Of a DNA stretch of 50,697 bases, positions 10,226-47,966 are shown piece by piece. The stretch is from IMG/VR virus record IMGVR_UViG_3300010885_011561, positions 1 through 50,697 of that record. One strand, 5' to 3'. This DNA is from a virus. The notes below the pieces were generated by a model. It had not been told where the DNA came from and made no database searches. It saw nothing but the letters and a program-made list of their open reading frames with translations. The position numbers and the translations under genes were made by a program. The stretch's first letter is position 1; each line of letters starts with the position of its first letter.

Positions 10226-10240
10226 TAATCTATTCTCAAT

Positions 10241-22508: not shown

Positions 22509-25454
22509 TTATTGATACAAGAACTCCGTACTATCCATGGCTTCGAATGCTACAATTTCTGCCTCAGGCCAGATACGAGAAGCTTCGTTGGTCCAGTGTA
22601 GTACACAGGCTCCGATGTCGTATATTACTTTAGGCTCTACTCCGGATCCTTTTAGTTTAGCAAGATAGTCTACATGACTTCTAGGAATTAGGCGTTGACT
22701 TCCTAGTTCTCTCAACCTTGTTTGAATATCAACTACAGGAGTAGTAGGAGGATTTACTATAGCAGGACTACTGATGCTAGGAATGTTATTATCGACATTA
22801 AAAGTAAAACTACCAGTGTGCTGGCATTGGATAGTTGTATCTGCCCAAATTCTAAACCCTTTGTCTAATGCTTTACGGCAAAAGTCAACATCTTCCGAAA
22901 CAGTGTCTTTGTGATTGATAGCACTATAATATTTAAACTGCGGGTAACCTATAGATTTGAATACTTCTGCTTTAACTAAAACGCAACCAAACCCGCAGCC
23001 TGCAATTTCGACTAAGCCGTGTCCTTTAATTTTGCCGTAGGGTATATTAGTAACACCCCCGTGTTCGTTGTGTTCGTATACTTCGAGTATGTGTAGTCCA
23101 GGCTTGCGTTGAATATACAACCCGCTTACAGCATCTAGATCATGTGCTAGTAGTTTCTTTAGTGTGTCGGGAGCAAAAGCAATATCGCTGTCTACACTGA
23201 ATAGGTAGTCAAATCCATTGACTACCCAATCTGCTATCAAGTTACGAACTTGATCTATATTGTATCCGTAGAAGAATTGAAATGTAGTTTCGTATCCTTC
23301 TGGTACTTCTAAATCATAGATGGCCTTGAATGTATCAGGCTCTATGTTACGGGCTGTAGGGATTCCTATCAGTATCTTTTTTTTTGATGGATTCATTTTC
23401 TTTACAATTATTTGTGCGTTTTGATTTTGCTCAATGGCATTGACTTTATAATCATTGAGCGGGTTAATATCATTGTAGTTATATACAATGTCTTGTAGGC
23501 ATTTGACTTTATCGGGATCAGCGGCTTCTATTAACGCATAGAAGACACTGCCATCTCCACCTGCCTTAAACCATTCTCCTTGTTCATTTTGGAACAAGCT
23601 GTCTGCAATGTCGTTGAGCAGGTATTTTCTAAATGTGCGTAGATGTGTGTAAGGTAAGATCCAGTTAAAGTGATGATTTCTATAATCACGAGCTTGTTTA
23701 ACATGCTCAGGATATGGTTGACTGATTAATGGAATGTTATCTACCATGCTCCAGCATGATCCATAGGTAAACTCTGTAGTACCATCATACAGGGCATTGT
23801 ACTGACTAAAGATAGTATTGTCGTTTACTAGACTATCATCACCATCTAACAACATAATAATAGAGTTGTTGTTGGTTAGGCTGCGAATGCGTTCAATTTG
23901 ATTGCGTACTGCACCTTGATTTTCTGTGTTAACAGCTAATAAAAACTTATCTTGTACTTCCTTGGGCAATGCAGACACTGCGGCTTTTACCACTTTTACT
24001 GTGTTGTCTGTAGAGCAGTCGTCAATTAGAATATGTACATAGTTGTCATAATCTTGACCGGCTACACTTTGTATACATTTAGTGATGTAAGTGGCACAGT
24101 TATAGAATGGACTGATAATAACAATAGGTTGTTCGTTACCTGTTTTATAATTTTCAAGTTCAATAGTGTTATGAAACTTGCGATTCCATATCTTGTGTAC
24201 TCTACGATTAATTTTAGTAACTGCACGATATTCATCTCGTGATAGATATAGGCCCAGTTTCTTAACCATCAACTGTTTCCACTGCAGGGCAACTGTATCC
24301 CAACCTGCTAGGTCTTTGACAATGTTACAGTAGTATTGTTTTTGTTGATGTAGGTACTTGTTGTGATATGCTTCAACTGTTGTTTTAACAAACTTTTCAA
24401 CTTGTTCAGGTACATTAATATCAGGAAATAGGCCGTTGGGTTCTATGGCATAGTCAATATGATAGCAAGCACCTTCTAGGGCAATTTCTTCAAGGGCACC
24501 AAATCTGCAGGTAATAGCGGGTGTGTTATACAACAGGCTTTCTAATGTGCTAATCCCGAACGTTTCGGGAAATGCCGCAGGGTACAACATAAAGTTTGCC
24601 AGTGTGAGTATGTCGGCAATTTCACGCTGTGAAATAACTCCCGTAAACTCTACACCTAGTTTAGCCAACGCAGGATCTGCAGCCATGGCACGCCAATCTT
24701 TTTCTTGTTGATCAGGTTCACTGCCTGTACTGAATCTATAATAGCCACCTATGATCTTTAACTTGGCAGTAGGGATGTGTCTTTTAACGTGTGGCCAAAT
24801 GTACTTGACTAACGGAATCATACCTTTAGTCACTGATGCATTATAAACAAACAGGTCAGGATCTTTAGCTTTAATATCTACTTCTGTTTTGAAGTTTCGG
24901 GCACCGTTGCGTGTGATAAAAAACTTGTTCTTTAATACTTCAAAGTTGCGTCTGCGTCCGTGATTACAGTTAGCAACATAGGTCAAGTGGAAATCACTTA
25001 ATGTAAAAATATCTGTAATACGATTGCTGACAGCAAGTTCTTCAATTAGGTTATCACCAAGGCAGAAAGTATCGTGCATCCATAACGCACGAACTTTTGC
25101 TTTAGATAGCACCCTGTTGTATAGATCCATGTTCTGGAACGGAGTGGATCTAATATCGTTTAACTTGGGATAATCTTTAGCGTCTGTAAATGGAATTACT
25201 GTGCGTGAACTTACAACAATATCAAACTCATGATCTAGAGCAAGGTCAGTGAGTGGGCGATATGTAACATTATCATAGACTCCCGGACGGGCATGATCAA
25301 TACCACAGTTGTTGAATACAGTTACCGTAAATCCAATTTGGGCAAGTTCTCTGCCCATCAGTGTTACAGCACTTTCGCTGCCGCCTAATCCTTGTTTGTC
25401 TACAGTAGTACCATCATAGGGTATGCCGATAATATCGATAATAGCAAGCTTCAT
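22509..25454 (-). CDS. Multidomain glycosyltransferase polyprotein with FkbM N-terminal half
   Basis: This 981-residue protein has four blocks. Residues 1-400 form a GT4-like transferase (GLGGSESAVTLMGREL, LYPAAFPETFGISTLES). Residues about 440-680 form a GT2 domain (IVIISPFYNCATYI, IDDCSTDNT, LLDGDDS). Residues about 695-900 form a second GT-A type domain (KKKILIGIPTARN, FSVDSDIAF, SEDVDFC). Residues about 940-981 are the S-adenosylmethionine-binding start of an FkbM methyltransferase, cut off at TAA. It would build and cap a short glycan. It lies next to the giant adhesin and has a sigma70-type promoter. No membrane segments are seen. Confidence 0.88.
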   Translation of the reverse strand: MKLAIIDIIGIPYDGTTVDKQGLGGSESAVTLMGRELAQIGFTVTVFNNCGIDHARPGVYDNVTYRPLTDLALDHEFDIVVSSRTVIPFTDAKDYPKLNDIRSTPFQNMDLYNRVLSKAKVRALWMHDTFCLGDNLIEELAVSNRITDIFTLSDFHLTYVANCNHGRRRNFEVLKNKFFITRNGARNFKTEVDIKAKDPDLFVYNASVTKGMIPLVKYIWPHVKRHIPTAKLKIIGGYYRFSTGSEPDQQEKDWRAMAADPALAKLGVEFTGVISQREIADILTLANFMLYPAAFPETFGISTLESLLYNTPAITCRFGALEEIALEGACYHIDYAIEPNGLFPDINVPEQVEKFVKTTVEAYHNKYLHQQKQYYCNIVKDLAGWDTVALQWKQLMVKKLGLYLSRDEYRAVTKINRRVHKIWNRKFHNTIELENYKTGNEQPIVIISPFYNCATYITKCIQSVAGQDYDNYVHILIDDCSTDNTVKVVKAAVSALPKEVQDKFLLAVNTENQGAVRNQIERIRSLTNNNSIIMLLDGDDSLVNDNTIFSQYNALYDGTTEFTYGSCWSMVDNIPLISQPYPEHVKQARDYRNHHFNWILPYTHLRTFRKYLLNDIADSLFQNEQGEWFKAGGDGSVFYALIEAADPDKVKCLQDIVYNYNDINPLNDYKVNAIEQNQNAQIIVKKMNPSKKKILIGIPTARNIEPDTFKAIYDLEVPEGYETTFQFFYGYNIDQVRNLIADWVVNGFDYLFSVDSDIAFAPDTLKKLLAHDLDAVSGLYIQRKPGLHILEVYEHNEHGGVTNIPYGKIKGHGLVEIAGCGFGCVLVKAEVFKSIGYPQFKYYSAINHKDTVSEDVDFCRKALDKGFRIWADTTIQCQHTGSFTFNVDNNIPSISSPAIVNPPTTPVVDIQTRLRELGSQRLIPRSHVDYLAKLKGSGVEPKVIYDIGACVLHWTNEASRIWPEAEIVAFEAMDSTEFLYQ

Positions 25455-25499: not shown

Positions 25500-28400
25500 T
25501 TATATCCAATACGCAGTCTGCGATGTTAGGTTTGTACCTGTAGTTGATCCGTCGACATAGAAGTTTTCCGAACCTATCAAGCTGTTGGTAATAGATTTAC
25601 CACCACCTGCTGTTCCGGAGTTGGTATAGAAGGATTTAATTACAACTGCATCATCGGCTATGTAATTGGTAATTACTAGTTGATCTGGTCTATCAATTCC
25701 TACACTCTTAGGATAACGCATGTAATTGGTTACTATTACTTGAGATTCCCAATTAACCATTGGTCCACCGATCAATGAACTTCTAGTCGGTAATGATGTT
25801 GCAGTTACCACAGCAGTAACCGCTGAGGTATTAGTAGCAGGGAATGCTCGGCCTGCTCCGTAAATAACACGAACAGCTCCTTTACCACCACTACCACTAG
25901 CACTAGGCCAGCTAGTACCCGGGCCACCACCGCCTCCGCCATAATCACCGCCGTAGCCGTCACTATTTCCACTTTCACCATAGCTGTTTGCAGGGTTCTC
26001 GCCTGACCGGCCTCGAGTACCTCCTGAGCCGCCTGCACCACCACCACCGTTGCCTGCACTAGTGCTGAATACTTGACCACTACTACCGTGCCACCATCCT
26101 GAGGCTGTTTCTCCACGACCGTAGATACCTACGCCGCCTCCAGCACCACTACCGTATGTACTTGAGTAATAACCACCGCCTGCGGCACCACCACTGTTTA
26201 GTCCCGGTAATCCTTGTGCGTTACCGCCTGTACCTGAGTAGCCACCAGCACCACCACCACCTGCGTAGTTAGTAGCATTACCACCAGCGCCACCGCCATC
26301 GCCTACATATCCGCCACCGTATCCGTTGGCATTAGGCCCTGAAGTGTTAGCACCAGAGGTTGCATTACCACCACCATACCCTGCTACAGTAGTTAGATTA
26401 ATAAAATAACTGTTTCCGCCTGCACCACCGTTTTTAACTCCGCCTGCGCCAACTTGTACGGTGTATGACTGACCAGGAGTAACTGCAATGTTATTTTTCC
26501 AACCAAGGCCGGCACCAGCACCTGAGGCCTGAGCCCAGCTATTATAACCTGCACCACCACCACCAATTGCTACAACACTAACTGATGTAACACCCAATGG
26601 AGCAGTCCAACTGTATGTACCCGGGGTGGTAAATTCAGCATCTCCCTGGAACGGGTAAGAACCAAGAGTGCTAGTAGTAATCGAAGTTATAGTTCCTGCA
26701 AACGGAGTTGTTCCACCGTATGCATAAACTTTAATTTGTTCTGAACTATCAACACTGGCAACAACTAATGAATTACCGCCAACTGATCCTACTGTACCAG
26801 TACTTCCGCTAGTTGTTGTTATTGTAATTATTGTACCGCTACCTGCACTTGCAACTATACCAGATGTACCACGTAGTCCGGTAATGTTAAAGAACCACGA
26901 TGACCCTGTTAATGTAGTAACAGCGGCTATCTTAATAGATGGTAAAATTTCACCGGTAGCATACACTGAGTTAATAATACCAGTAACAGGTGTTATTGAT
27001 CCATAAGATAAACAAGTTATTGAATTAGTATTAACTGCTGTTACATAGGTAACATTAGCTGGATTACCAGGAGCCCCTGCATTACCTATTCTTCCTATAG
27101 AAGAAATTATAGTACCTGTAGTAAATTCTCTAAGAGATGTTAGTCCAGTAATATCAAATGTCCAAGGGCCTGAGCCAAATACTGTTCCTACAGTAGCTAT
27201 TCCATTAGGATCGTTAGTTAATACTATAGGAGTTCGTGTAATGCGTGTAGTTGGTGTAATTGTAAATGCATTTATAGAACCGGTACTAGTTGATCTTATA
27301 TATGTTGAAGTTGCCGCAACAGCTATAATTGTTGTTGATGTAGATATTACCGGGCCTCTGATTAAATTCGTCGGAGTTGGAACAAACCATTGTTTCTTTC
27401 CATAATTTGTATTAGCATTTACAGTATATACTGTAAAGGGTTGAGTTGTTTCATCACCAGTTAACCTACCTTCTACATAAGGACTATTAGTAGTGAATGT
27501 TGCCCAATTAACGTTATTACCATATCCTTTGCCGTCGATGCCTATTCTCTGAGAAACTCCTGTAAGTGTTTCAGTGTCAAATGATTTGTATGTAAATGAA
27601 GACCCAGCTGTCTTACTTCCTATAACAACTCTACTTCCCATATCATCTGGATAGACTATGGTCGCTGTATAATTAGATGCAGGGAATGCACCAACTGCTG
27701 TACTTAACAATAACGTACTTAAAGATATTACAGGAGTGTTAACTGGTGTAATTGTTACAGCATTCGTTGAATTATCAATAAATGTTGAACTTCTGCATAT
27801 TATTAACACGGTATTTGTAATGTTTCCCGGCTCAACTGTTGGAGTTTGGAAATTACCAGTGTATACTGCTGTTCCTTTAACAATACGTAGATTTGAAATA
27901 TTTCCTCTAAAATAACTACCATCGCCGTTATAGTTAGCGTAGTAAGTTCCGATGAATAATGTACCACTAGCACCTGTACCAGCACTAAAACTAGCAGTTG
28001 AGTATACTGAACTTCCGTTCACATACATACTAAAGTTACTACCAGATCTCACGGCAGCAATATGTGTCCAAGCATTTAACGGAATTTGGCTAGCACTGGA
28101 AGTATAGGCATTGGCCCAAGCCCAATTTCCGCTATTAGTTTGCCAGGTTAAACTTCTGTCAGTATTGATTTGCCATAACCAGAAAGTTGCGCTGCCACCA
28201 GTACCTAATGTTAATATAGTGTTGTTACCGTTGGAAGTGACATAGACCCAACATTCAACAGTAAAATCACCACCTGCTCCTAGATTATAGTTAGCAGTTG
28301 ATGGTGTAGTTAGATATTGGTTTGTACCATTAAATGCTACTTGATATGATGCGGCCGGACCACTAGTAGATGTTACTGTACCAGAAGTAGAAACAGCAGA

Positions 28401-31400
28401 GATAGCTCCAGCAGTTACCGTAGTATTAACGGTATTGTTGATGATAGCAAGTTGTCTGTTATTAATAACGTAGTTAACATACGATGTACCTGTTCCAACA
28501 TTTCCGAGGTTTCCTCCTACTGTGGTAGCTGTGATTATTGCACCACCAAAGAATGCATTGGTTCCAGTTAATCCAGAGATTGTATATGACCACGGTCCAG
28601 TAACTGTTGATGTACTACCGAACGGATTTTCTATAGAAATAACAGGAGTGCCCACTACAGTTGTAGTTGCAGTGTACGCAGATCTATCAATAAATGTATT
28701 AGTCTGACATACTAGCAAACTTGTAAATGTGCCTGTTGAGATAGCTGCAATGTTAGTGCTAGCTGTTTGTGTAATCGACAACGGAGATGTTGGAGGAGTA
28801 AAGTTACCTGTATAAACTGCTAGATTTTTTACCATTCTAAAGTTAGATATGTATCCAGTAAAGTATTCAGTGTAGCCGCGAGCCTGGCCAATCACTAATG
28901 GTTCTGTATTATCTGAGCCTAGTCCGATTGTTACGGAATATCGTGATACTCCGTTTACATAGATATTCAAAGTAGACCCCGTGTAGACCCATGCACAATG
29001 ACTCCATACATTAGAAGTTAGTGTGTACCCTGACTCGTAATTAGTTCCATTGTAGAAACTAATAACACCTGTGCTTACTCTTAAATATCCTTCATAGGAT
29101 GTAGTGCCGCTACCGCTTACCCGTTTGGCAAAAATTGTATTGTAAATTGAGTAATCGCCAGCTGGTCTTAACCAGCATTCAGCAGTCCATGCAGTATTGG
29201 CTGCGGCTAGATTAAATTGTGTAGAACTAGGATATTGTAGATAACTTGAAAACGCTGGGCTAAAACTTACACTATAAGATGTAGTGTTAGATAATTGATT
29301 TGTACCTATTACTTTTTCAATGTACGGGCTAGTAGGTTCTATTTCACCTGTGGCATAAATTCCAGTGATGCTACCAGCAAGAGGAATCTTAGATCCAAAA
29401 CTAGTAATGCAAGTCATAGCAGTACTGCTGGTAACTCCAGTGACTGTTACTTGATTACCTAGGCCAAAACTTCCAGCAACAGACAGTGCAAATATAATAG
29501 TACCTGTGGTAAATCCGCTGGTAGATCTCATACCATCGATGGTAAATGCCCATGTCGATGTAGTAACTGTGGTAATATTAGTAATATTCCCGGGATTGAC
29601 TCCTGTTTCAAACATCGGTACAACAGCGTTACGCATAGATGTTGTAGAATAAGTAGAAATTACAAGTTTAGGTTCTGTAGTTTCGTTACCAAAATAGTTT
29701 ACAGGGCGATTAAGAGTGTTTACAGCAACAGTGGCAACAATATTATCCCAGTTTTCCTGTCGACCTACATTAGGACCAAATCTTACTATACTGTAGTCTG
29801 CAGTACCTAGGCCATAAGCAAGAGTACCTTGCCATGCTACATTGTTTACCCTAATATTGCTGAACCCGGCGAATGTAGCACTTTGAGAATAATAACTGCT
29901 GTCAATGTATACAGTTTTACCCGTACCATATAATATTGAGAATAACAATGTAGTACCGTTATAATGCTTAATGTACCCATCTGCAGTATATACTATATAA
30001 AATTTCTTAGCTGGATCCCAAGCTGGTCCAGTTTGTATTTCAGTACCATTGTGGTGTACGGAATATGAGTTATATTGAAATGGATATGAAGTATAATCTA
30101 AACTAGTGTAACTTGCATTAGTGGTTGGATCTTCGTTCCAACCTATCATAGCATAGCTAGCGTTGTTGTCGCCGGCAGCAGCTTGTTTGAAGAATTCAAG
30201 AGTACACGGAGCAGTAAATCCAGCAGCAGTATATGCTTGATTGTCCCAACTATTAGAACCACTGGTCTTAAAGATATTTACATCTGTGGTTCCATTGCCT
30301 GTCACTGACAGGTTACCGTTAGGAGCAGTAAAGGTCAATGTTTGATAAACACCTGTATTAACTGATATCACTGCCCCTGAAGTAGTTACATTGCTAATAA
30401 CTCCAGCAACGGGCGGAGTATTTGATCCTGTAGAAACAGCAACGATTTGACTGATATTATTAATAAAGGTAACATAAACTGTACCTGTACCAAACCTGCC
30501 AGTACCACCTGAAGATGTAGTAGCAACGATTACAGAACCTAGCTGCATCATAGTAGTAGCTGTTAGATTAGATACTGTAAAGGTCCAGACATTTGAGCTT
30601 ACTGTAGTAATATTGCTGATTACAGGACCAAATTCAACTGCTCCAGTGGGCTGTATGTAAGCAACATTACCCACAGTAGGAGAAACATCTCCGCTTCTAG
30701 CAATACATACCATTTCTGTGCTGCTTGTAACACTTAATACTCTAACTGTATTATTTGAGCCAAAGCTACCAGTTAACGCACTTGATGTAATTACTAAACC
30801 TGCTGAAAACTCAGCAGTTGTATTCATGTCTGATAATGTAAAAGTCCATGGTCCTGGTGCACCAGGAACGCCTAGATTAGGAACAATATAGCCCGATGGT
30901 CCTGCAAATTGTACGGTTCCGGCGACTGTTGTGTTAGTTGTTGTATTGGTCCAACTATATATTCTATAACCTCCTGTGACAGCCACTGTTGGATTACCTG
31001 TGACTGCCCAGGCAGGTGCATAAGAACTAGGATAACGAATCATAGCAATACCAGAACCACCACGATTGTTAATGCCACCACCGCCATTACCTGTACCAAG
31101 GGCGCCTGCTGTTGACGGAGTTCCGCTACTAGTCCATCCCCAACCACCTCCACCCTGAGCATAAGTTACTGTTACACCGGAGAAATTAGAACTAAACCCA
31201 GTTCCTCCTGCGCCACCGTTCCACGGACCGCTTGCATCCGAACCAGAACCATTGCCACCTGCACCAGTAAAGCCACCACCACCGCCACCGGAGTGTGCGC
31301 TTCCAGAATACCAACCTCCGCTGCCGCCACTGTTACCTTGACCAATTGTACCACCACCGCCGCCAGCTCCGCCTTGTTGGAATTGATAGCTAGGGCTAGC

Positions 31401-34400
31401 TGGGCTTCCACCACCTCCACCACTTGCGCCACCACCACCAGAGTTCCCAGGAACACCTGTACCAACATTATTAGCACCACCGTATCCACCACCTAGAACA
31501 GTAGTTTGTTCAAATGATGATCCAAATCCTGCTTGTCCTGCGGCACCACCAGCACCTGCTTGTAGGTTGTATCTATATTCTGCAGTTACAGAACTAGTAC
31601 CTGTTGTAATACCACCAGCGCCGCCGCCGCCAACTTGTGATCCACCACCACCACCGACAATAAAGTATTCAAAGGTTGTTGGAGCAGCAGGACTTGAAGT
31701 AGGAGTATAAGTTCCTCCTGCTACAGTAATACCATTGGTATATCCATCAATAGGAGCAACCGTTCCTCCTGTAGCAACAGCAACAATACTTGTGCTGTTA
31801 GTAGCAGTATAGAAATAAACTGTGTTACCTGTTCCGGTATTCCCTGCACCTGGGCTAACGGTAATAATTGTACCGTAGGTCAATGAGGAAACAGTGGCAG
31901 ATGAAACATTGTATATTCCAAGTGCCCAAGTAGTTGTTGTTAGCTGTGTAGTACTGTAAATTGTAGCTGATGAACCTAATACAGGACTAGGGCTAATATT
32001 TTTAATTGTTCCTAGATTGTTAGGTAACCCGGATGTGGACTGCAATATTGAAGTAAAGTTTCTTTTTTTAGAATAAGATGTAGCACTGGATACAGGAACT
32101 ACCGCTACGAATGCTGACTGGACACCTTGATATCCTAGATCTTGTAAAGGAGTTGGAATAAGGCCATCGGCGGTGTAATTTACAATTGTATTACCACCTG
32201 TGGCGTTTTGTGACCCGAGATAGCGTATAATAACAACACCTGACCCGCCTGCACCCGAAAGACCGTAATGTCCCATACCACCGCCACCGCCACCTGTATT
32301 AGGGGCGCCAGCGCCGCCGGTGGCGTTTGGATCTCCGCTAGCAGAACCGTTGCCTCCAGCAACACCAGTCCAAGTAGAACCACCTCCAATACCACTAACG
32401 CCGGCTGTATTGGCAGCTCCGCCACCACCGCCACCTAAACCACCGTTGCCTGGACGAGTACCATTTGTGTAAAGGCCTCCACCACCACCGCCACCATAAT
32501 AAACAGGGGTTCCTGCAAATGAGCTGATTGTTCCTGTGCCGCCATCACCACCACGATTAATTGCATCACTACTATTGCCGCCTAGGCCTCCTGCACCGCC
32601 TCCACCAGCACCAGCAGTCATTGTCCGTGGTCTTGATCCAATTGCAGATCCACCTGCGAATCCTTGTCCAGCAATTCCAGTACCGCCACTGCCAGTGCCT
32701 CCTTCAAATCCACCGCTACCACCACCTGATCCACCTGCCCGGCCAGCATTCTGAGGGTAAACACCTCCACCACCACCGCCAGTGGCACTAACACCAAAGG
32801 CAGAGGATGCTTGGCCATCATTTCCTACAGATGATACGCTGGATGAAATTGAGCCTACGGAGGCACCACCTGCGCCAACAGTAATAGTATAAGGTGTACC
32901 GGATACAACTGCAAAACTTGAGGTACTTCGTACGCCACCAGCTCCACCGCCTCCACCTACATAACTTCCGCCTGATCCTCCACCACCTACTACAAGAAAG
33001 TCTACAGTTCCCGAAAAAGATGGAGTAAATGTGCTAGTACCTACAGCAGTGAATATATGTGCAGTATAGGTAGTTACACTTGGGACATATGTTCCACCCG
33101 GAGCACTGATAGAGTCAATTGGTCCCAGAGCAGGAGCACTACTTCCACCGTAAGCTGTGGCAATAATACTAGTAGCACTAAAAATTGAATATACAGTTAC
33201 CGTACTTCCTACTGCAAATCGTCCAGTCTGTCCTGAACTAGTATTTGCTATAATTATTGAACTAGTTGTCAGCGAAGAAACTGTAGCAGAAGGAATGTTA
33301 TAAATTCTGAAGATCCAGGTTGAAGAATTTATTTGAGTAGATCTATAAATGTATGTACCTGTGGTGCTACTATTAATAACTCTAGTATCGCTAGGAGCAC
33401 TTTCATAATCACTTGAATTTGTTATGTCAGTGGGTACATGAATATAAGTTTTAATTGTTGATCTAGCCAAAGAATTTGCATTTACTAATAATTGGAAAGG
33501 AATTGTATTTTGAATTTTAACCGCTGGATTTGATATTCCCAATAATCTCTTTCTTGGTATAGAGTCACCACCGATATTGTCGTCATAGCTAGTTGGGTCT
33601 AATATTAAAACTGCTGAAACAGTGGTTAATGTACCAGCATTAGTAGCAGGGAATGCTCGACCAGTACCCCAGATAATACGAACAGCACCAACACCTCCAA
33701 ATCCACCACCGTAGCTGGTACCAGAACCTCCACCACCACCGCCATGATCTCCACCTGTTATTCCTCTATATGAGCTTTCGCCCGAATTTTCACCACCTCG
33801 GCCATTACCGCCACCCGATCCACCACCCCCACCTAAATATTGTCCACGAGCCACACCATCTGCGCCACGACCATATACGCCAACACCGCCACCGGCTGGT
33901 ACACCATATGTACTTGAATAATACCCACCAGCCGCGCCCGCGCCCGATCCTGTAGGAGCCGCAGTACCACCACTTGATCCAGAATCAGCACCATTGCCTG
34001 AATAGCCGCCAGCACCTGCACCAGCAGAAGTCCAAGATCCTTGATAAGCACCGTTACCACCACGTCCGCCACCGTCGCCAACCCAGCCGCCACCGTAGCC
34101 ATTGGCTGTTGCTGTGGCATTTGCTCCGCCCTGACCGCCACCATAGCCTGCTACTGTAGCCAAGCTAATAAAATAACTATTTCCGCCCTCTGATCCAGCA
34201 GTAGAGGCATTGGCATTACTTACACCTCGTCCACCAACTACAACTGTATATGAATTCCCCGGTGTAACTGCAATGTTATTTTTCCATCCAAGACCACCAC
34301 CTCCACCTCCACCTGAACTCCATTGGTAGCCACCACCTCCACCACCACCTATGGCTACAACATTAACTGATGTAACACCAGGTGGTGCAACCCATGTAAA

Positions 34401-37400
34401 TGTTCCTGTTGTGAAATAAGCAATATCGCCACTTGATGCAACAGTACCTGTTGATCCTGTAAATGTAGGAGTACCAATGAATCCTAGAGTTGGCGTTCCG
34501 CCTGTAATTTCTGCTGTAATTTGTGTAAAACTGTCAACAGCAATTACTTTTGCAGTAGTTCCTGTACCTAGACTGCCTGTTATTGAAGTAGCAGTGAATA
34601 TGTAACCGAGAACAAGACCATTAGTTCCTTTGATATTAACAATAGTAGTTTGCCAACCTGTACTGCCAGTGTTAATTGCACTTATTCTCGGATTTGTGTT
34701 AATAGCACCGGTAGGGTATATTGCAGTAACACGACCACTTACCGGAGGAGTTGAATATGATGCATTTGCCCAAGCAATGCAGTTAAGTGTGTTGGTAACT
34801 GTATCAACACTATCAATATAAACTGTGTTAGTTGGTCCAAAAGTTCCGCCAAGTGGTTGTGCAGAAATTACAGTGTTTGTATTAAATCCGACTACCGTAG
34901 TTCCTGTGATTGCAAATGACCAGGGATTTTGTATAGGTGCTCTAAATGTAGGAACAACAAGTCCTGTTGTTCCGTTAAAAACAAATGTTCCATCTAAGGT
35001 AAATGTGTGTACTGTGTAACCACTAGTCGAAGTAATTGTCCCACCACTGCTAGTTTGAGCACCTTTATAACGGACAATAACAATACCTGAGCCGCCTTGA
35101 CCTGAACCACTGCCCCATCCACCGTTAGCTGCCCAATAACTTCCACCGCCACCACCACCACCTGTATTAGGTATAGCGTTAGGTGTGCTACTACCTGTAG
35201 TAACTGCGTTAACTGACTGTGCCGGATAGCTGTTATAGGCATACTGTGTAGTCTGTCCTTCACCACGACCACCGCCGGCATAGCCGTCACCTGCTCGTTC
35301 ACTGCTGTTGCCGCCACCCCCACCACCACCAGCGTAATAAACTACCGAACCGGAAATATCAAATGCACGGCCTTGTCCGCCATCACCACCAGGAGCACTA
35401 CCTGAACCAGCAACACCTGCGCTGCCTGCTCCACCTCCGCCTGCACCTGTATAACCTACGCCACTTCCGCCTCCAGCAAAACCGTAACCAGTTGCTCCAC
35501 CAATACTAGTTTGTGTGGCAGTGTTTATTGATGTAGTTTGATTCCAAGCTGCACCACCACCAGATCCGCCTGCCATATTAGTAGCTGTTGGTGTTACTCC
35601 AGTACTTCCGCCACCTCCACCACCTTGGGCAATATATGTTGTACCAAAGGAACTGTTGCCGCCTCTGTTACCCATACCAATAGTTGAATTACCAATTAAA
35701 GTTCCACCTTGGCCAATTACAACTGCAAAACTACCTGTTGTTATTGTAAGACCAGTTCCATAAAGAACACCACCACCACCACCACCTCCATTAGCGTTAG
35801 TAGTATTATGATTACCACCAGATCCACCGCCACCGACAACTAACAAATCAACGGCATAACTTAATGGCGGAATATATGTTTGTCCTGCTAGTGAGATGCT
35901 AGAAATAGTACCGTTTGCTGGCGCAACAGATCCGCCTGTAGCAACAAATACAACATAACCTATAGTAGATGTAGAATACACCCATACTGTATTTCCAGTA
36001 CCAAAATCACCTACGAGGCCGGATGCTGTAACTACAGTACCGTATGATAATGAGGAAATCTGACTTGTAGGTAGATTTTCAATGGCAAATGCCCAGTTAG
36101 AAGTACTTGCTACAGAGACTCCGTATATGTTAGGCAAGCTGCTAGCAATGCTAGTTACCGTACCTATAAAACCCAGACCCCCTGGATAAGAAGTCAAAGA
36201 TAGAGGCCAAGATAATGTGCCTGTGCTAAAATACCGTGAGTTAGTAGCTAGGGTTGATTCTACAACTGTGTTATATCTTAAAGAACCATAACCTGTTTTT
36301 TGTATAGTTGTACGCTGTAGTACCAGTCTTCGTTTATCATCAATTAACACTGGTATGATTTTAGGAACAACGTTTTGTGTGTAAGCGTAAGGATTTGAAT
36401 TAATTAAATTTGTTGGATACAGAACAGAAGGGCCGCCGACAGATCGATTCTTAAATGAAGTTGTTGCAACGACACTTATTGTATTACCTTGATCAGCAGT
36501 TAATGTAGCAGGAAAAGCCCGATTAGAACCCCAGATAATACGAACAGCGCCTTGGCCACCTGGACCACCACCATAGCTGGTACCAGATCCGCCACCACCG
36601 CCACCAAATGCACCACCTGCAATAATCTGAGAGCCACTTTGTCCAGAGCCCTCACCTCCACGACCTGCTTGGCCGCCTGAGCCACCTCCGCCACCATAAT
36701 AAGATGAACTACCAACACCATCTGCACCACGGCCATATATACCAACACCACCGCCTGCTGGTACACCGTATGTACTTGAATAATATCCAGATGCAGCACC
36801 GGCACCTGATCCTGCTGGAGCATTGTATGCAGTAAAGTATCCACCACCGTTGTCAGCACCATTGCCTGAATAACCACCAGCACCAGCACCACCTACGTTC
36901 CATGATCCTTGATATGCACCATTACCACCACGGCCGCCACCGTCGCCGAAGTAACCACCACCATATCCGCCTGCGGCAGCGGTAGAGTTTGGTCCACCTT
37001 GACCACCACCATAACCAGCTACGGTTCCGGTTGATATAAAATATGATGTGCCGCCTGCGGCACCTGCGTTAGTTGCATTAAGAGTAGAGGGGCCTGCGGT
37101 ACCGACTACAACTGTATATGAATTTCCCGGTGTAACTGCAATGTTATTTTTCCATCCAAGTCCACCACCACCACCACCACCTGAACTCCATTGGTAGCCA
37201 CCACCGCCACCACCACCTACTGCTACAACGTTAACTGATGTAATACCTGTTGGGGCTATCCATGAAAATGTACCAGTAGCTGTAAATTCTGCTTGTCCTA
37301 CTTGCGGGAATGTTGCTGTTGCACCAGTAGCTGTAAAGTTTGTCACAACACCTGCAATAGGAACACTAGTACCAGATGTAACATAGGCTACTAGAGATGT

Positions 37401-39437
37401 GTATCCAGTAATTGATTGAACTATTACTGTATTCCCTGCACCAAAACTACCACTACCGGTAGTCGCAGTAATAACAGATCCTGGATTCCCAGCAGTCAAT
37501 CCGCTGGTGCTTTTCAGACCACTGACTGTAAATGTATACGGAGAACTAGCACTAACATTGGTTATCAAAACGCTGGCTAGTGATTCACCTGTGGGATAAA
37601 CTGAGTTAACAATACCAAGTTTTGGAGAAGTATACCCAAAAGATATACCGCTAATTGAGCTAGACGCAGAATTGACACTGGTAATGTAAATTAAACTACT
37701 TTCAGACCCTAATGTACCAATGTTAGGTACAAACGAAATGACATCACCTACATTATATCCAACAGTTGATGATAGATTAGTTACCGTAAAGGTCCACCCT
37801 GTAGGTATAGGATCTCTAAATGTTGGGAAAGTAAGACCACCACTACCAACAATTAAGGATGATAAACCGGTTGCGGTAAATGCATGTACGGTGTCGCCAC
37901 CAACTGTGGTAACTGTTCCACCTGTGGCACGTTGACTGCCTGCATATCGAACAACAACAATACCCGAGCCACCGTCACCGCCTTTGTTATTAGAATTATA
38001 GTGAGAGCCACCACCGCCACCGCCACCAGTGTTGCGTCCTGCATTACCGCCTGGTACGTTAGTTTGACTACCAGTGCCGCCCGCTGTGGCATTGTCACCA
38101 GAATTAAGTCCAGTGCCGCCAAGTCCAGTGCTGCCACCACGAGGAGCACCACCACCGCCACCACCATTGCCGCCGTTACCACCAAAGTTACTATATCCAG
38201 CACCACCACCTCCACCTGCCCAAAAGTAGGCCGACCCTAAAATGCTATTAGAAATACCTACGCCACCATGGCCAATTTCACTACCAGTTTGTGATGCTGC
38301 TGCACCTGCGCCACCACCGCCTCCTGGATACCAGGTAACACCACTGCCTGCTCCGTTATTACCTTGGCCAGCTGTTCCTGACCCTGCTGTTCCACCATAA
38401 CTGCTACTAGACATACGGCCGCCAGAGCCACCGCCGCCAGAGCCACCACTGCCCGCTGGATAACTTGGCGAATCGTGTTTACTCGCACCACCTCCACCGC
38501 CAAGTGCAGTGAATCCAAGTGCAATTGTTGAACTACCATTTGTACCAGCTGGACCCGAAGTCCCTGCAGGAGCACCAGCGCCGCCGGCGCCAACTGTTAT
38601 AGGATATGTGCCAGTTGCTAATATCAAGCCACTGCCGGCTATATATCCGCCAGCACCGCCGCCACCACCCATGTCAGATCCACCACCTCCACCACCACCT
38701 ACTATTAGGTATGTTGCAGAAAGAGGAGCAACTGGCGCAACATAAAAGGTTTGCCCTGTATTTGTTATCCCAGTAATAGTTCCATTTACCGGCGCACTAG
38801 TTCCTGTAGTAGCAACAACAATGATATTGCTGGAATTAATTGCATACACATAAGCAATATTTCCAATTCCAAAATTACCAGTACTGTTTGATGATGTATT
38901 AACAGTGATAATTGAATTAACTGATAACCCCAAAGTTTGCGCCGAAGGTAACTGTTCAATTGCAAATGCCCAAGTCGCAGTGGTTAACAACGAGACTCCG
39001 TATATATTAGGTTGTCCCGGTATGTCAGTGAAAGTGTTAACTGTAGCAACCCCTCCAACAAGCATGTTTATAGGTATTCTAATAGGATTAGAACCTCGAA
39101 CAAAAAGACTGGCGGTATTGACACTATTAACCTGTGTTGAGGTGCCGGCCCGTAGAACTGATTGTCCAGTTACTAAAATTGCATTATTAGTATTTGTACC
39201 GGACAATATTGTTCTAGTAGACGGAGTTGCAATGACCAAGGGTGTAATAAAACTATTAAAGTTTTCCCCCCAAACTGGTCTATTATTAAATTCAAAGACT
39301 CTATCTTTGAAATAATAAAACCTAGTTTGCTGTTCCGCTGTCCTAATACTATACTGGGCAATTACAGTTACAGAAGCTCCAACGACCGTGGTGTTGAAGT
39401 TCTTCTTTGAGCCAGTAATATCAATTACTTGAGCCAT
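25500..39437 (-). CDS. Giant Gly-rich modular tail adhesin (4,645 aa)
   Basis: One uninterrupted 13.9 kb frame. I count seven Gly-rich modules of two types. Type A (near residues 240-500, 1196-1460, 2140-2410, 2590-2800) runs from FLVVGGGGSGG to GSGIVVVRY. Type B (near 716-986, 1666-1930, 4262-4536) runs from GVTSVNVVAIGGGG to GAVRIIWGxGRAFPATN. About 14 copies of a 75-residue beta-repeat link them. Residues about 3026-3212 look like a SPRY or concanavalin-like domain, and two LamG-type lectin domains (CWLRP and ECWVY segments) lie near 3382-3546 and 3692-3882. There is no signal peptide. It is probably a tail fibre whose Gly-rich and lectin modules contact host sugars, by analogy with Gly-rich phage adhesins. 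Confidence 0.85.
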   Translation of the reverse strand: MAQVIDITGSKKNFNTTVVGASVTVIAQYSIRTAEQQTRFYYFKDRVFEFNNRPVWGENFNSFITPLVIATPSTRTILSGTNTNNAILVTGQSVLRAGTSTQVNSVNTASLFVRGSNPIRIPINMLVGGVATVNTFTDIPGQPNIYGVSLLTTATWAFAIEQLPSAQTLGLSVNSIITVNTSSNSTGNFGIGNIAYVYAINSSNIIVVATTGTSAPVNGTITGITNTGQTFYVAPVAPLSATYLIVGGGGGGGSDMGGGGGAGGYIAGSGLILATGTYPITVGAGGAGAPAGTSGPAGTNGSSTIALGFTALGGGGGASKHDSPSYPAGSGGSGGGGSGGRMSSSSYGGTAGSGTAGQGNNGAGSGVTWYPGGGGGAGAAASQTGSEIGHGGVGISNSILGSAYFWAGGGGGAGYSNFGGNGGNGGGGGGAPRGGSTGLGGTGLNSGDNATAGGTGSQTNVPGGNAGRNTGGGGGGGSHYNSNNKGGDGGSGIVVVRYAGSQRATGGTVTTVGGDTVHAFTATGLSSLIVGSGGLTFPTFRDPIPTGWTFTVTNLSSTVGYNVGDVISFVPNIGTLGSESSLIYITSVNSASSSISGISFGYTSPKLGIVNSVYPTGESLASVLITNVSASSPYTFTVSGLKSTSGLTAGNPGSVITATTGSGSFGAGNTVIVQSITGYTSLVAYVTSGTSVPIAGVVTNFTATGATATFPQVGQAEFTATGTFSWIAPTGITSVNVVAVGGGGGGGYQWSSGGGGGGGLGWKNNIAVTPGNSYTVVVGTAGPSTLNATNAGAAGGTSYFISTGTVAGYGGGQGGPNSTAAAGGYGGGYFGDGGGRGGNGAYQGSWNVGGAGAGGYSGNGADNGGGYFTAYNAPAGSGAGAASGYYSSTYGVPAGGGVGIYGRGADGVGSSSYYGGGGGSGGQAGRGGEGSGQSGSQIIAGGAFGGGGGGSGTSYGGGPGGQGAVRIIWGSNRAFPATLTADQGNTISVVATTSFKNRSVGGPSVLYPTNLINSNPYAYTQNVVPKIIPVLIDDKRRLVLQRTTIQKTGYGSLRYNTVVESTLATNSRYFSTGTLSWPLSLTSYPGGLGFIGTVTSIASSLPNIYGVSVASTSNWAFAIENLPTSQISSLSYGTVVTASGLVGDFGTGNTVWVYSTSTIGYVVFVATGGSVAPANGTISSISLAGQTYIPPLSYAVDLLVVGGGGSGGNHNTTNANGGGGGGGVLYGTGLTITTGSFAVVIGQGGTLIGNSTIGMGNRGGNSSFGTTYIAQGGGGGGSTGVTPTATNMAGGSGGGAAWNQTTSINTATQTSIGGATGYGFAGGGSGVGYTGAGGGGAGSAGVAGSGSAPGGDGGQGRAFDISGSVVYYAGGGGGGGNSSERAGDGYAGGGRGEGQTTQYAYNSYPAQSVNAVTTGSSTPNAIPNTGGGGGGGSYWAANGGWGSGSGQGGSGIVIVRYKGAQTSSGGTITSTSGYTVHTFTLDGTFVFNGTTGLVVPTFRAPIQNPWSFAITGTTVVGFNTNTVISAQPLGGTFGPTNTVYIDSVDTVTNTLNCIAWANASYSTPPVSGRVTAIYPTGAINTNPRISAINTGSTGWQTTIVNIKGTNGLVLGYIFTATSITGSLGTGTTAKVIAVDSFTQITAEITGGTPTLGFIGTPTFTGSTGTVASSGDIAYFTTGTFTWVAPPGVTSVNVVAIGGGGGGGYQWSSGGGGGGGLGWKNNIAVTPGNSYTVVVGGRGVSNANASTAGSEGGNSYFISLATVAGYGGGQGGANATATANGYGGGWVGDGGGRGGNGAYQGSWTSAGAGAGGYSGNGADSGSSGGTAAPTGSGAGAAGGYYSSTYGVPAGGGVGVYGRGADGVARGQYLGGGGGSGGGNGRGGENSGESSYRGITGGDHGGGGGGSGTSYGGGFGGVGAVRIIWGTGRAFPATNAGTLTTVSAVLILDPTSYDDNIGGDSIPRKRLLGISNPAVKIQNTIPFQLLVNANSLARSTIKTYIHVPTDITNSSDYESAPSDTRVINSSTTGTYIYRSTQINSSTWIFRIYNIPSATVSSLTTSSIIIANTSSGQTGRFAVGSTVTVYSIFSATSIIATAYGGSSAPALGPIDSISAPGGTYVPSVTTYTAHIFTAVGTSTFTPSFSGTVDFLVVGGGGSGGSYVGGGGGAGGVRSTSSFAVVSGTPYTITVGAGGASVGSISSSVSSVGNDGQASSAFGVSATGGGGGGVYPQNAGRAGGSGGGSGGFEGGTGSGGTGIAGQGFAGGSAIGSRPRTMTAGAGGGGAGGLGGNSSDAINRGGDGGTGTISSFAGTPVYYGGGGGGGLYTNGTRPGNGGLGGGGGGAANTAGVSGIGGGSTWTGVAGGNGSASGDPNATGGAGAPNTGGGGGGMGHYGLSGAGGSGVVIIRYLGSQNATGGNTIVNYTADGLIPTPLQDLGYQGVQSAFVAVVPVSSATSYSKKRNFTSILQSTSGLPNNLGTIKNISPSPVLGSSATIYSTTQLTTTTWALGIYNVSSATVSSLTYGTIITVSPGAGNTGTGNTVYFYTATNSTSIVAVATGGTVAPIDGYTNGITVAGGTYTPTSSPAAPTTFEYFIVGGGGGSQVGGGGAGGITTGTSSVTAEYRYNLQAGAGGAAGQAGFGSSFEQTTVLGGGYGGANNVGTGVPGNSGGGGASGGGGGSPASPSYQFQQGGAGGGGGTIGQGNSGGSGGWYSGSAHSGGGGGGFTGAGGNGSGSDASGPWNGGAGGTGFSSNFSGVTVTYAQGGGGWGWTSSGTPSTAGALGTGNGGGGINNRGGSGIAMIRYPSSYAPAWAVTGNPTVAVTGGYRIYSWTNTTTNTTVAGTVQFAGPSGYIVPNLGVPGAPGPWTFTLSDMNTTAEFSAGLVITSSALTGSFGSNNTVRVLSVTSSTEMVCIARSGDVSPTVGNVAYIQPTGAVEFGPVISNITTVSSNVWTFTVSNLTATTMMQLGSVIVATTSSGGTGRFGTGTVYVTFINNISQIVAVSTGSNTPPVAGVISNVTTSGAVISVNTGVYQTLTFTAPNGNLSVTGNGTTDVNIFKTSGSNSWDNQAYTAAGFTAPCTLEFFKQAAAGDNNASYAMIGWNEDPTTNASYTSLDYTSYPFQYNSYSVHHNGTEIQTGPAWDPAKKFYIVYTADGYIKHYNGTTLLFSILYGTGKTVYIDSSYYSQSATFAGFSNIRVNNVAWQGTLAYGLGTADYSIVRFGPNVGRQENWDNIVATVAVNTLNRPVNYFGNETTEPKLVISTYSTTSMRNAVVPMFETGVNPGNITNITTVTTSTWAFTIDGMRSTSGFTTGTIIFALSVAGSFGLGNQVTVTGVTSSTAMTCITSFGSKIPLAGSITGIYATGEIEPTSPYIEKVIGTNQLSNTTSYSVSFSPAFSSYLQYPSSTQFNLAAANTAWTAECWLRPAGDYSIYNTIFAKRVSGSGTTSYEGYLRVSTGVISFYNGTNYESGYTLTSNVWSHCAWVYTGSTLNIYVNGVSRYSVTIGLGSDNTEPLVIGQARGYTEYFTGYISNFRMVKNLAVYTGNFTPPTSPLSITQTASTNIAAISTGTFTSLLVCQTNTFIDRSAYTATTTVVGTPVISIENPFGSTSTVTGPWSYTISGLTGTNAFFGGAIITATTVGGNLGNVGTGTSYVNYVINNRQLAIINNTVNTTVTAGAISAVSTSGTVTSTSGPAASYQVAFNGTNQYLTTPSTANYNLGAGGDFTVECWVYVTSNGNNTILTLGTGGSATFWLWQINTDRSLTWQTNSGNWAWANAYTSSASQIPLNAWTHIAAVRSGSNFSMYVNGSSVYSTASFSAGTGASGTLFIGTYYANYNGDGSYFRGNISNLRIVKGTAVYTGNFQTPTVEPGNITNTVLIICRSSTFIDNSTNAVTITPVNTPVISLSTLLLSTAVGAFPASNYTATIVYPDDMGSRVVIGSKTAGSSFTYKSFDTETLTGVSQRIGIDGKGYGNNVNWATFTTNSPYVEGRLTGDETTQPFTVYTVNANTNYGKKQWFVPTPTNLIRGPVISTSTTIIAVAATSTYIRSTSTGSINAFTITPTTRITRTPIVLTNDPNGIATVGTVFGSGPWTFDITGLTSLREFTTGTIISSIGRIGNAGAPGNPANVTYVTAVNTNSITCLSYGSITPVTGIINSVYATGEILPSIKIAAVTTLTGSSWFFNITGLRGTSGIVASAGSGTIITITTTSGSTGTVGSVGGNSLVVASVDSSEQIKVYAYGGTTPFAGTITSITTSTLGSYPFQGDAEFTTPGTYSWTAPLGVTSVSVVAIGGGGAGYNSWAQASGAGAGLGWKNNIAVTPGQSYTVQVGAGGVKNGGAGGNSYFINLTTVAGYGGGNATSGANTSGPNANGYGGGYVGDGGGAGGNATNYAGGGGAGGYSGTGGNAQGLPGLNSGGAAGGGYYSSTYGSGAGGGVGIYGRGETASGWWHGSSGQVFSTSAGNGGGGAGGSGGTRGRSGENPANSYGESGNSDGYGGDYGGGGGGPGTSWPSASGSGGKGAVRVIYGAGRAFPATNTSAVTAVVTATSLPTRSSLIGGPMVNWESQVIVTNYMRYPKSVGIDRPDQLVITNYIADDAVVIKSFYTNSGTAGGGKSITNSLIGSENFYVDGSTTGTNLTSQTAYWI
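25840..26640 (-). repeat. Type B Gly-rich module, copy 3
   Basis: This segment shares long nearly identical DNA stretches with 33640-34440 and 36500-37290, for example the stretch encoding LGWKNNIAVTPG and the end GRAFPATN. Boundaries are approximate. Confidence 0.7.
33640..34440 (-). repeat. Type B Gly-rich module, copy 2
   Basis: This is nearly identical at DNA level to copy 1 (36500-37290) over the segments encoding GGGYQWSSGGGGGGGLGWKN and GAYQGSW. Boundaries are approximate. Confidence 0.75.
36500..37290 (-). repeat. Type B Gly-rich module, copy 1
   Basis: This is the first of three copies; it also shares YYSSTYGVPAGGGVG and YGRGADGV segments with copy 2. Boundaries are approximate. 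Confidence 0.75.
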
Positions 39438-41391: not shown

Positions 41392-44300
41392 TCAAAGATT
41401 CCTTGTAAATGTAAACGTAACTGTTAAATCTGTTCCAGGTACGCTGTTACCAATATTTACCACATCAACTGTAACGTAATCATTTATATTTAAATTCACT
41501 GTTGCAGTATTCAATGATGATATTGTAGTTGAACTATTTATGCTCAATGTCGCCGTAGATATATTATTAACCTTCACAGCAAGATTTAATGGTGTATTAC
41601 CCGACGGAGCAGATTCTACCCTAGCTCTAATGCTGGTAATTGTGCTGCTAACTGGTATATACCATTTTTCTGTTCCTGTATTTACAGTTAAAACACCAGG
41701 TTTTCTATAGTGTCTTTCTAGGACAGTACTGGCACCGCCTACTGCATTGTCGCCTTTTTCACCCTTGCTACCTGTATAGCCAGCCCGCCCTTCACTACCT
41801 GTATATCCCCCAGATCCAGTGTAACCAATCGGACCTGTATAGCCCATGTCACCTTTACTGCCTGTATAACCAATACTACCTGTAAAACCTGTTGCGCCAG
41901 CAGATCCACCTGTACCAGCAGCACCCTCCGGGCCTCGACTACCCGTATAACCTAGATCACCTTGACTACCAGTAAAGCCGGCAGCACCACGACTACCTGA
42001 GTATCCAACACTACCTGTAAATCCAACACTACCTGTGTATCCAGCACTACCTGTGTATCCCCGTGCTCCAACCGCTTGCCCGTTTTGATATATTGTTCCG
42101 GAATAATTAATGTCACCCTGCACATATAATCCACCGCCAATGCCAACTCCGCCGTAGGCTACTACTGCTGCACTCACAGTCGAAGTTGCTGTGGTTGTAT
42201 TATAGAATACAAATGTGCTGGTTGTGCTGGTTGTTAAACCCTGGGCTCCTTGAGCACCTGTAGCACCCGTAGCACCACGAGGACCTTGTCCACCTTGTTT
42301 ACTCTTTTCCAGTGCTACATAATCAATCCATGTTCTGTGGCTAACATTGCCACCACTGATGTGGTTTAATCTTAGAGTAACAACACCATTAGAAACATAA
42401 GGGGCAGAATCAATTATGCCTAGAGCTAATTGATACCATCCAGTTAATCCAGAATATACTGCAAATGTATCCCAGGCAACATTAGCATAGTTATATATGT
42501 CAATGTCGATTGTATGACCCGATGCCTGAGTATAATTAATGTTTAATACAACACGGTTAAATTCTGTAATGTTATCAAACCCAACATACGTAATATATCC
42601 AGGAGTAGTAGCAGCATCGTTGATACTGTAGAATCCAGAACTTGTCCCTGTGTTATAGTCATTGAATGTTCGAATATCTAGTACTGTACCAAAATTGTAT
42701 GTTCCGTAGGTAGTGGTAGTTCCCGCAATGGTTGCTAATCCTGTTTGTGATGTAGGATTATTAGTAATATAGGTTGCAGGATAGGTCACAGTTAACAAAT
42801 CGGCTGCTGTAATCACTGTCGATCCACTAACGTATAAACTACCTCCTACATATAAATTACCGCCAACTCCCCCACCACCTGCAACAATCAATGCTCCAGT
42901 AGTAGTCGATGTTGCTGTTGTGGCATCTGCTAATATTATGGAACCAGTTTTGAATGTTCCGTAGTTGGTACCAGTGAATGTTCCACTAGATTCATCACCG
43001 TTAGAATACCACTCTAAATAACCTGTATCGTTGGCTAAAACTAAGGCGGCATCTTTATCTTGTCCGGATTTGTAATAATGGTAGATAAAACCTATGTCTT
43101 TACCATCATCCACTGTCCAAGTGTGATCGGTTCCTGTACTACCTTGAGGAACGTGTATATTGAACAGGTTATCAGTATAATATGTATTTGTAGAATATAC
43201 GAAAGTACTTGTGCCAGCAAATGTAACATTGTTTAAGAATAATGCAGGTCCAGTGACAAACAAAGATTTGTCAATACCTACTCCACCTGCAACATATAAT
43301 GCATTATCTATTACACTAGAGGTACTCGATAGAGTAGATAGTATACTAACTCGTCCGCCTATGTTTACATCTTGACCTATACCTACACCACCTGTAACCA
43401 CTAAAGCACCAGTAGTAGTAGATACAGAATTAGTTGTTGTGTTTACAATTAAATTTTGAGATACTTCAGTTTGTCCAAGATTAGAAGTAATTCCACTTTG
43501 TGTGGTTAATACCTGTGCATCACCTAAGAATACACTACCTGCAACATATAAATTTTGTCCAATGCGTACATCTTTACCAATACCTACACCACCTACTACT
43601 TGTAAAGCCCCGGTAGTAGTTGAAGTAGCATTTGTAGTTGTGTTAACAATAAAATCTTGAGTAACCTGTGTTAGACCTTCAACGCTGGTAATTCTAGAAG
43701 AAGTAGTTAACACTTCTGCATTATTTAGATACGCAGTACCACCAACATACAAATCTCCTCGAATACCAGCACCACCTGCTACCTGCAATGCTCCAGTAAC
43801 TGTTGAAACAGCACTGGCAGTATTTGTTATTGTGAATATACCATCAAACGGACTTATTGTTGCGCCACCACCCATGGTAGCAGTACTATAACTTAATTCA
43901 CCAGTAGATGTATTGTAATAAACAATATAAGAAGTACTGGTAGTTCGAAGGCCGCCCACAAATAAACTGCCACCAATGCCAACTCCGCCTAGAACTTGTA
44001 AGGCGCCCGAGTTAGTTGATACAGAATTTGTTGTTGTATTAACCTTTAGTGTTTGGTTAATAATGGAGTCGCCTAAAACACTAGACAAACCACTCGAAGT
44101 AGTTAGGATTTCAGCGCCGTTTAGATAAGCAGTTCCGCCAACATGCAAGTTGCCCGCAACAACGGCTCCGCCTAAAATTCTTAGGGCATTTGGTTCATAG
44201 CTATATCTATTAGATAATGTTGATAGTATTGTAACACTATCTGTACCAACTGTTAAGATTTGTGACCAAGTTCTAACATTAGAACTTGTTGACCCAGTTA

Positions 44301-44436
44301 ATACCCCACCCTCAATAAAAGGAGAGCCTAGATCAGGTTCTGCTTGGCTAGGGTCTAAATAGTCATAGCGATCAACGGTAAGTTTATCACCGTGAAGCTT
44401 TTTTATCTTACCGCTGGTTAATCTACTTTTACTCAT
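41392..44436 (-). CDS. Tail fibre with tandem repeats and collagen-like segment (1,014 aa)
   Basis: Residues about 80-330 hold four to five tandem repeats of about 50-60 residues built on NTTTNSVSTTTGALQVVGG, VGIGxxLxVGG and a following LTTSSG stretch, a beta-rich shaft. A beta-sandwich-like domain lies near residues 550-690. Residues about 700-910 include collagen-like Gly-X-Y triplets with a GYTGSx hexapeptide. The C-terminal 110 residues form a beta head. It is probably a trimeric fibre. It overlaps the start-proximal gene by 8 nt. Confidence 0.8.
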   Translation of the reverse strand: MSKSRLTSGKIKKLHGDKLTVDRYDYLDPSQAEPDLGSPFIEGGVLTGSTSSNVRTWSQILTVGTDSVTILSTLSNRYSYEPNALRILGGAVVAGNLHVGGTAYLNGAEILTTSSGLSSVLGDSIINQTLKVNTTTNSVSTNSGALQVLGGVGIGGSLFVGGLRTTSTSYIVYYNTSTGELSYSTATMGGGATISPFDGIFTITNTASAVSTVTGALQVAGGAGIRGDLYVGGTAYLNNAEVLTTSSRITSVEGLTQVTQDFIVNTTTNATSTTTGALQVVGGVGIGKDVRIGQNLYVAGSVFLGDAQVLTTQSGITSNLGQTEVSQNLIVNTTTNSVSTTTGALVVTGGVGIGQDVNIGGRVSILSTLSSTSSVIDNALYVAGGVGIDKSLFVTGPALFLNNVTFAGTSTFVYSTNTYYTDNLFNIHVPQGSTGTDHTWTVDDGKDIGFIYHYYKSGQDKDAALVLANDTGYLEWYSNGDESSGTFTGTNYGTFKTGSIILADATTATSTTTGALIVAGGGGVGGNLYVGGSLYVSGSTVITAADLLTVTYPATYITNNPTSQTGLATIAGTTTTYGTYNFGTVLDIRTFNDYNTGTSSGFYSINDAATTPGYITYVGFDNITEFNRVVLNINYTQASGHTIDIDIYNYANVAWDTFAVYSGLTGWYQLALGIIDSAPYVSNGVVTLRLNHISGGNVSHRTWIDYVALEKSKQGGQGPRGATGATGAQGAQGLTTSTTSTFVFYNTTTATSTVSAAVVAYGGVGIGGGLYVQGDINYSGTIYQNGQAVGARGYTGSAGYTGSVGFTGSVGYSGSRGAAGFTGSQGDLGYTGSRGPEGAAGTGGSAGATGFTGSIGYTGSKGDMGYTGPIGYTGSGGYTGSEGRAGYTGSKGEKGDNAVGGASTVLERHYRKPGVLTVNTGTEKWYIPVSSTITSIRARVESAPSGNTPLNLAVKVNNISTATLSINSSTTISSLNTATVNLNINDYVTVDVVNIGNSVPGTDLTVTFTFTRNL

Positions 44437-47958: not shown

Positions 47959-47966
47959 TATTTATA
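47959..47966 (-). promoter_or_regulatory. Late promoter box TATAAATA (exact T4 consensus)
   Basis: It lies 29 nt upstream of the 1,051-residue fibre and overlaps the end of the collagen-like gene. Confidence 0.6.

Follow-up and report, generated by a model that had tools for sequence, protein, structure and literature searches.

A repeated, likely beta-barrel domain of a giant adhesin-like viral protein recurs in unrelated phage proteins

Phage Ig-like and BACON domains provide a precedent for portable domains (PMC6949934). The Ig-like domains, in so far as the work of Fraser et al. 2006 is cited in that source, are small beta domains which are optional and occur in many unrelated virion proteins. 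BACON domains form tandem repeats in crAss-like phages, occur also in Bacteroidota and are tail-associated; the bacterial counterpart has been described as links between carbohydrate-binding domains (PMC6949934). Barrels related to the RIFT type have also been described in tail and neck proteins of phages (PMC10684548). The repeat unit described here resembles the Ig-like domains in size, in its predicted beta structure, in being optional and in the range of its carriers; it resembles the BACON repeats in its tandem arrangement, in its association with tails and in its occurrence in Bacteroidota.

The window, which is the whole stretch of DNA analysed, is the 50,697-base virus record IMGVR_UViG_3300010885_011561. 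The repeat units and the likely binding domains that follow them, referred to as heads, are located in a single adhesin-like protein. The features of this protein, in the order in which they are translated, are:

25500-39437, minus strand: giant adhesin-like ORF, 4,645 amino acids, a single open frame with 14 units and 10 heads
38745-38990, minus strand: unit 1, class A, single, before Gly-rich head 1; held-out score 60.7 bits
38070-38738, minus strand: Gly-rich head 1; PF21722, 49.0 bits
37578-37811, minus strand: unit 2, first of a tandem pair; held-out 48.8 bits
37314-37556, minus strand: unit 3, second of the pair, before Gly-rich head 2; held-out 60.2 bits
36531-37283, minus strand: Gly-rich head 2; PF21722, 34.0 bits
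35874-36113, minus strand: unit 4, class A, single, before Gly-rich head 3; held-out 62.7 bits
35064-35870, minus strand: Gly-rich head 3; PF21722, 75.3 bits
34698-34937, minus strand: unit 5, first of a pair; held-out 51.1 bits
34446-34673, minus strand: unit 6, second of the pair, before Gly-rich head 4; held-out 31.7 bits
33669-34412, minus strand: Gly-rich head 4; PF21722, 28.4 bits
33087-33335, minus strand: unit 7, class A, single, before Gly-rich head 5; held-out 55.1 bits
32343-33050, minus strand: Gly-rich head 5; PF21722, 62.5 bits
31707-31946, minus strand: unit 8, class A, single, before Gly-rich head 6; held-out 56.9 bits
31038-31700, minus strand: Gly-rich head 6, approximate; by composition only (30-46% glycine), no Pfam match
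30633-30863, minus strand: unit 9, first of a pair; held-out 65.8 bits
30366-30605, minus strand: unit 10, second of the pair, before the unnamed head; held-out 56.8 bits
29802-30365, minus strand: unnamed head; no Pfam match, SPRY-like by eye only, homologues in L003-L012
29337-29570, minus strand: unit 11, single, before LamG head 1; held-out 72.8 bits; AlphaFold2 model over 29331-29603
28830-29243, minus strand: LamG head 1; PF13385, 68.4 bits
28371-28610, minus strand: unit 12, single, before LamG head 2; held-out 28.4 bits
27876-28331, minus strand: LamG head 2; PF13385, 79.2 bits
26943-27182, minus strand: unit 13, first of a pair; held-out 54.3 bits
26661-26912, minus strand: unit 14, second of the pair, before Gly-rich head 7; held-out 39.2 bits
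25860-26630, minus strand: Gly-rich head 7; PF21722, 17.3 bits, below the curated cut-off of 24.3; 24-44% glycine

Directly downstream of the adhesin, a 981-residue protein with GT1- and GT2-type glycosyltransferase domains is encoded (22509-25454, minus strand), and two collagen-repeat fibre proteins are encoded upstream (41392-44436 and 47962-50655, minus strand). A 1,051-residue tail fibre (44775-47930, minus strand) has an N-terminal Mtd_N domain and a weak Phycobilisome match at residues 825-851. The genes for the small and large subunits of ribonucleotide reductase occupy 7995-12571 (minus strand). A permuted tmRNA gene is located at 3408-3760 (minus strand; Rfam tmRNA_permuted, 114.5 bits, with alpha_tmRNA scoring too); the tag given by ARAGORN is ANDEQFALAA, which looks to be of betaproteobacterial type.

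The first-pass annotation had placed about 14 copies of a 75-residue repeat along the adhesin. An iterated profile run on the 4,645-residue protein recovered exactly 14 units at the same places, all in the one minus-strand ORF, and no fifteenth. Since the seeded copies match their own profile by construction, each copy was scored against a profile of the other 13, using 2,000 shuffled units per profile as control. The held-out units scored 28.4-72.8 bits (n=14), against a maximum of at most 15.5 bits for the shuffled sequences. The mean pairwise identity of the units is 31%; the copies are therefore old.

Column-by-column inspection confirmed the motif first recorded for the repeat (W-x-F-x-I ... 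P-x-x-G-x-I), the most constant positions being W18, G44, V54, P74 and G77 in the numbering of the copy at 29331-29603. The repeat itself stood, and only its length had to be changed, to about 75-85 residues: the strand just N-terminal of W-x-F-x-I is also part of the unit, giving a folding unit of about 80-85 residues.

The units form ten blocks, six singles and four tandem pairs, and each of the ten lies directly N-terminal of a head, which is Gly-rich in seven cases, LamG in two and unnamed in one. The Pfam-matched stretch of the head starts 2-32 residues past the unit. Seven of the ten heads scored above the Pfam cut-off; one Gly-rich head scored below it, another was assigned by composition and one is unnamed. 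The Gly-rich (PF21722, Gly_rich_2) and LamG (PF13385, Laminin_G_3) domains were the only Pfam matches of the whole ORF; they are carried by the units as separate domains and are not the repeat. The unnamed head was also found, at 58-62% identity, in L004-L012, loci in which the profile detected no unit. As a whole, the protein matched phrog_2295 and phrog_4474. These were set aside as an identity for the repeat because isolated units match neither.

No domain with this pattern had been named in the first-pass annotation, and we found no clear, consistent match of the units in Pfam, PHROGs or PDB sequences. Scanned singly against Pfam, the 14 units gave scattered weak matches only; for 67 units, drawn from this protein and from related ones, the best E-value was 0.0014 and no family was common to more than five of the 67. 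The clear match to a Pfam repeat family that was looked for in these two scans did not arise. The units had no PHROG family in common, and searching all PDB sequences with a profile returned nothing convincing.

The repeat had been described as a possible beta-repeat, with the suggestion that the fold of one unit be predicted. The AlphaFold2 model of a single unit (29331-29603, 67-row alignment) was all-beta, with a pLDDT of 93.9, a pTM of 0.85 and six predicted strands, at residues 5-14, 17-23, 35-41, 51-59, 62-68 and 77-88. The tandem pair of units 2 and 3 was modelled with a pLDDT of 86.5. A Foldseek search of the unit model against the PDB gave nothing at E below 0.001, the RIFT-type matches having E above 0.01. 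With VIA-align the best match was the dehydrogenase domain of SpNOX (8qq5, Z 7.8), followed by the lumazine protein LumP (3ddy, Z 7.4, 2.5 A over 74 residues); riboflavin synthase and the N-terminal F1/V1-ATPase barrel ranked only slightly lower. Ig-like folds were absent among the top fold matches listed, which were barrels; a matching Ig-type fold could lie outside the list. We take nearly all of the nearest matches to be six-stranded barrels of one general, RIFT-like type; for this reason the unit is likely a six-stranded beta-barrel. The Z-scores for RIFT-type barrels (7.0-7.8 over 70-83 residues) remained below 8 and, together with the Foldseek E-values, indicate a resemblance of fold only.

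The conserved residues of the unit were compared with the predicted strands. The constant hydrophobic positions alternate within strands (W18, F20, I22; I37, A39; V52, V54, V57; and further I63, 65, 67; I79, I82) and the constant glycines and proline fall in turns (G34, G44, G47, G49, G70, P74, G77). No conserved outward polar or charged position was seen in the column-by-column alignment; the outward strand positions are variable and rich in Thr and Ser. The near-invariant W shares the alternating face of F20 and I22 and probably belongs to the core. Constant hydrophobic strand residues, Gly/Pro turns and the lack of a conserved polar surface are as expected of a scaffold.

A profile search of other phage proteins, proposed together with the first description of the repeat, found the unit in at least nine unrelated groups. 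Patterns back-translated from the alignment of all 14 units were too diverged, and alignments of subsets (A3, A4, A6, A7) were used instead. A tblastn search of annotated phages with single units gave nothing, possibly because of the low-complexity filter. With tandem units as queries, other phage contigs (L170-L172) yielded proteins of 400 residues with one unit each, which scored 47-53 bits against a profile free of any such sequence. Proteins of this type match phrog_2941 (head and packaging), and a relative in the podovirus record MW202484 sits between the portal gene and the tail genes. From gene order and length, these carriers appear to be T7-gp11-like, and 75 T7-gp11-like tail proteins carry the unit. 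The proteins of L258, L259 and L260 (75-77% identical in the best segments) and of MW202484 run across the insert site without the unit; in L234 and the truncated L257 no unit was matched.

In a wider search of viral contigs the unit was found in 195 places, including tail fibres, collagen-like fibres and small unnamed ORFs, usually as one copy per carrier outside the adhesin. When the units were masked, the carrier proteins fell into nine clusters, and hence into at least nine unrelated virus protein groups. The unit thus behaves as a promiscuous accessory domain, being present in several unrelated proteins and optional in the gp11-like ones. The types of protein that carry it suggest a location on the virion surface. 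In L267, L331 and L370 the unit occupies a fibre slot (DDKNIEL...GGGI.LKG) that in the cyanophages L343 (S-RIM44) and L344 (ACG-2014h) is taken by a different domain of about 65 residues. A second small insert (TATATG...GTGI..GATI type) occurs at residues about 85-165 of the 400-residue tail protein in L181-L260 and is absent from MW202484; it was considered as kin of the unit and treated as a separate family, given a profile-profile probability of 3.5% and no overlap after iteration. Divergent unit-like domains (23-26 bits), possibly a distant branch of the family, were seen in larger proteins of L353 and L411.

Among 84,980 prokaryote genomes a single relative was found. It is a tandem pair in a secreted adhesin-like protein of at least 2,679 residues with a signal-peptide-like start, from a metagenome-assembled genome titled Chryseobacterium gleum (Flavobacteriales). 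The first pattern scan had yielded no relatives in 154 pattern matches and the second yielded this one; both relied on a few short patterns, and the domain may therefore be present in further cellular genomes.

Relatives of the adhesin were found in L003 (3,053 residues, eight units) and L090 (six units across two ORFs); parts of a unit-bearing adhesin were found in L091, L092 and L014, and about 160 further loci have only Gly-rich or LamG parts in common with it. In the unit tree several units of the window, L003 and L090 pair with strong support. Unit 2 of L090 is the sister and nearest relative of window unit 10 (56%), yet the LamG head behind it is 77% identical to the head after window unit 12. 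Unit 6 of L003 is the sister and nearest relative of window unit 12, yet the head behind it is the unnamed one, 64% identical to the head after window unit 10. With different heads after orthologous units, L090 and L003 have complementary junctions. In AU tests the trees keeping a unit and its head together were rejected (p 0.004 and 0.0014), for clades picked after the first tree had been seen, the alternative of a unit inherited with its head following from the heads alone. Similarity switches at the unit end in L090; in L003 the first half of the unit resembles window unit 12 more closely, and the remainder is undecided. Complementary junctions are the expectation if heads were exchanged at or near unit borders, here seen in two metagenomic proteins only. 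From these two relatives we infer that heads may have been exchanged at unit borders, with recombination as the route.

We consider it fairly probable that the unit is a portable, self-folding barrel which serves as a spacer or joint before heads that are exchangeable at its borders. Each unit would be one instance of a previously undescribed six-stranded beta-barrel domain, about 80 residues long and able to fold independently, which phages would reuse as a building block of virion surface proteins. In the adhesin, a single unit or a tandem pair would act as a rigid spacer or joint holding each of the ten heads out along the chain. Since every unit is self-contained and homologous to the others, the loss, gain or exchange of a head at a unit border would leave the fold intact. 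Elsewhere in virion proteins a lone unit is an optional insert, seated in a loop. The first-pass annotation had also called the repeat a spacer; this agrees with the unit standing ahead of every head and with the lack of a conserved polar surface. The mechanical role itself is suggested by position, and the adhesin is presumed to be on the virion. Single copies in the middle of gp11-like proteins and small ORFs have no following head, so spacing heads cannot be the general role of the unit. More specifically, and only tentatively, the units could be joints for exchange in a modular adhesin, in which recombination at the unit borders would swap receptor-binding heads (Gly-rich, LamG and others).

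The unit might instead be a binding domain in its own right. Weak surface binding has been proposed for phage Ig-like domains, and the unit could likewise bind weakly to surfaces, for example to glycans, avidity arising from its many copies. Such a role would suit the proteins that carry the unit optionally and have no heads, and also the secreted bacterial adhesin-like protein with its tandem pair, and diversified weak binding would fit the variable, Thr/Ser-rich outward strand positions. However, the surface lacks a conserved patch of aromatic or polar residues, the near-invariant W lying on the F20/I22 face and probably in the core, and almost every unit block adjoins a recognisable lectin-like or Gly-rich head. 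On these grounds we regard a binding role as unlikely.

Two other explanations concern the origin of the unit. Phage E1_FCCH-like domains (PF16190) are similar to it in size, and the Foldseek list includes the FCCH domains of Uba1 (2v31, TM 0.52, E 0.13) and of Uba6; the unit could be a divergent barrel of this kind, already annotated in phage proteins. However, PF16190 was matched by no unit in the 14- and 67-unit scans, a PF16190 search over 47 records gave only weak matches in three other records, none of them known unit carriers, and comparison of the unit with five phage FCCH-like repeats gave a profile-profile probability of 2.3%. Kinship by sequence is thus without support, and this explanation is very unlikely. 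The clean presence or absence of the unit in gp11-like genes could also point to an in-frame DNA element that is spreading recently. Against this, unit protein identity between unrelated carriers averages about 61%, whereas third-base agreement at conserved four-fold sites is 0.383, compared with 0.376 expected from composition. Protein identity at this level with saturated synonymous sites indicates that the domain is old and has been maintained by purifying selection on the protein. Recent mobility of the DNA was discarded on account of this saturation, and a spreading element is scarcely credible.

A domain that neither Pfam nor PHROGs models, recurring in at least nine unrelated phage protein groups, represents an annotation gap, and a profile of the unit would explain many "hypothetical" stretches in phage tail proteins. 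A barrel of about 80 residues that apparently folds by itself should be easy to express and study. If the units are head-exchange joints, they mark where natural changes of binding specificity should be sought, and phages would have a plug-in way of changing that specificity with one standard barrel as connector.

Compared with the systems described previously, the unit is a predicted six-stranded barrel with no named match, and no sequence relation to the phage Ig-like domains was found. The BACON domain has an Ig-like sandwich fold and is covered by Pfam, whereas the unit matches no Pfam model. The phage E1_FCCH-like domains show no significant sequence or profile relation to it. The RIFT-related six-stranded barrels of riboflavin synthase, ferredoxin reductase and the F1 N-terminal domain have the strand number predicted for the unit. 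The family appears undescribed in the libraries searched; the kind of domain it represents is already known from the Ig-like and BACON precedents.
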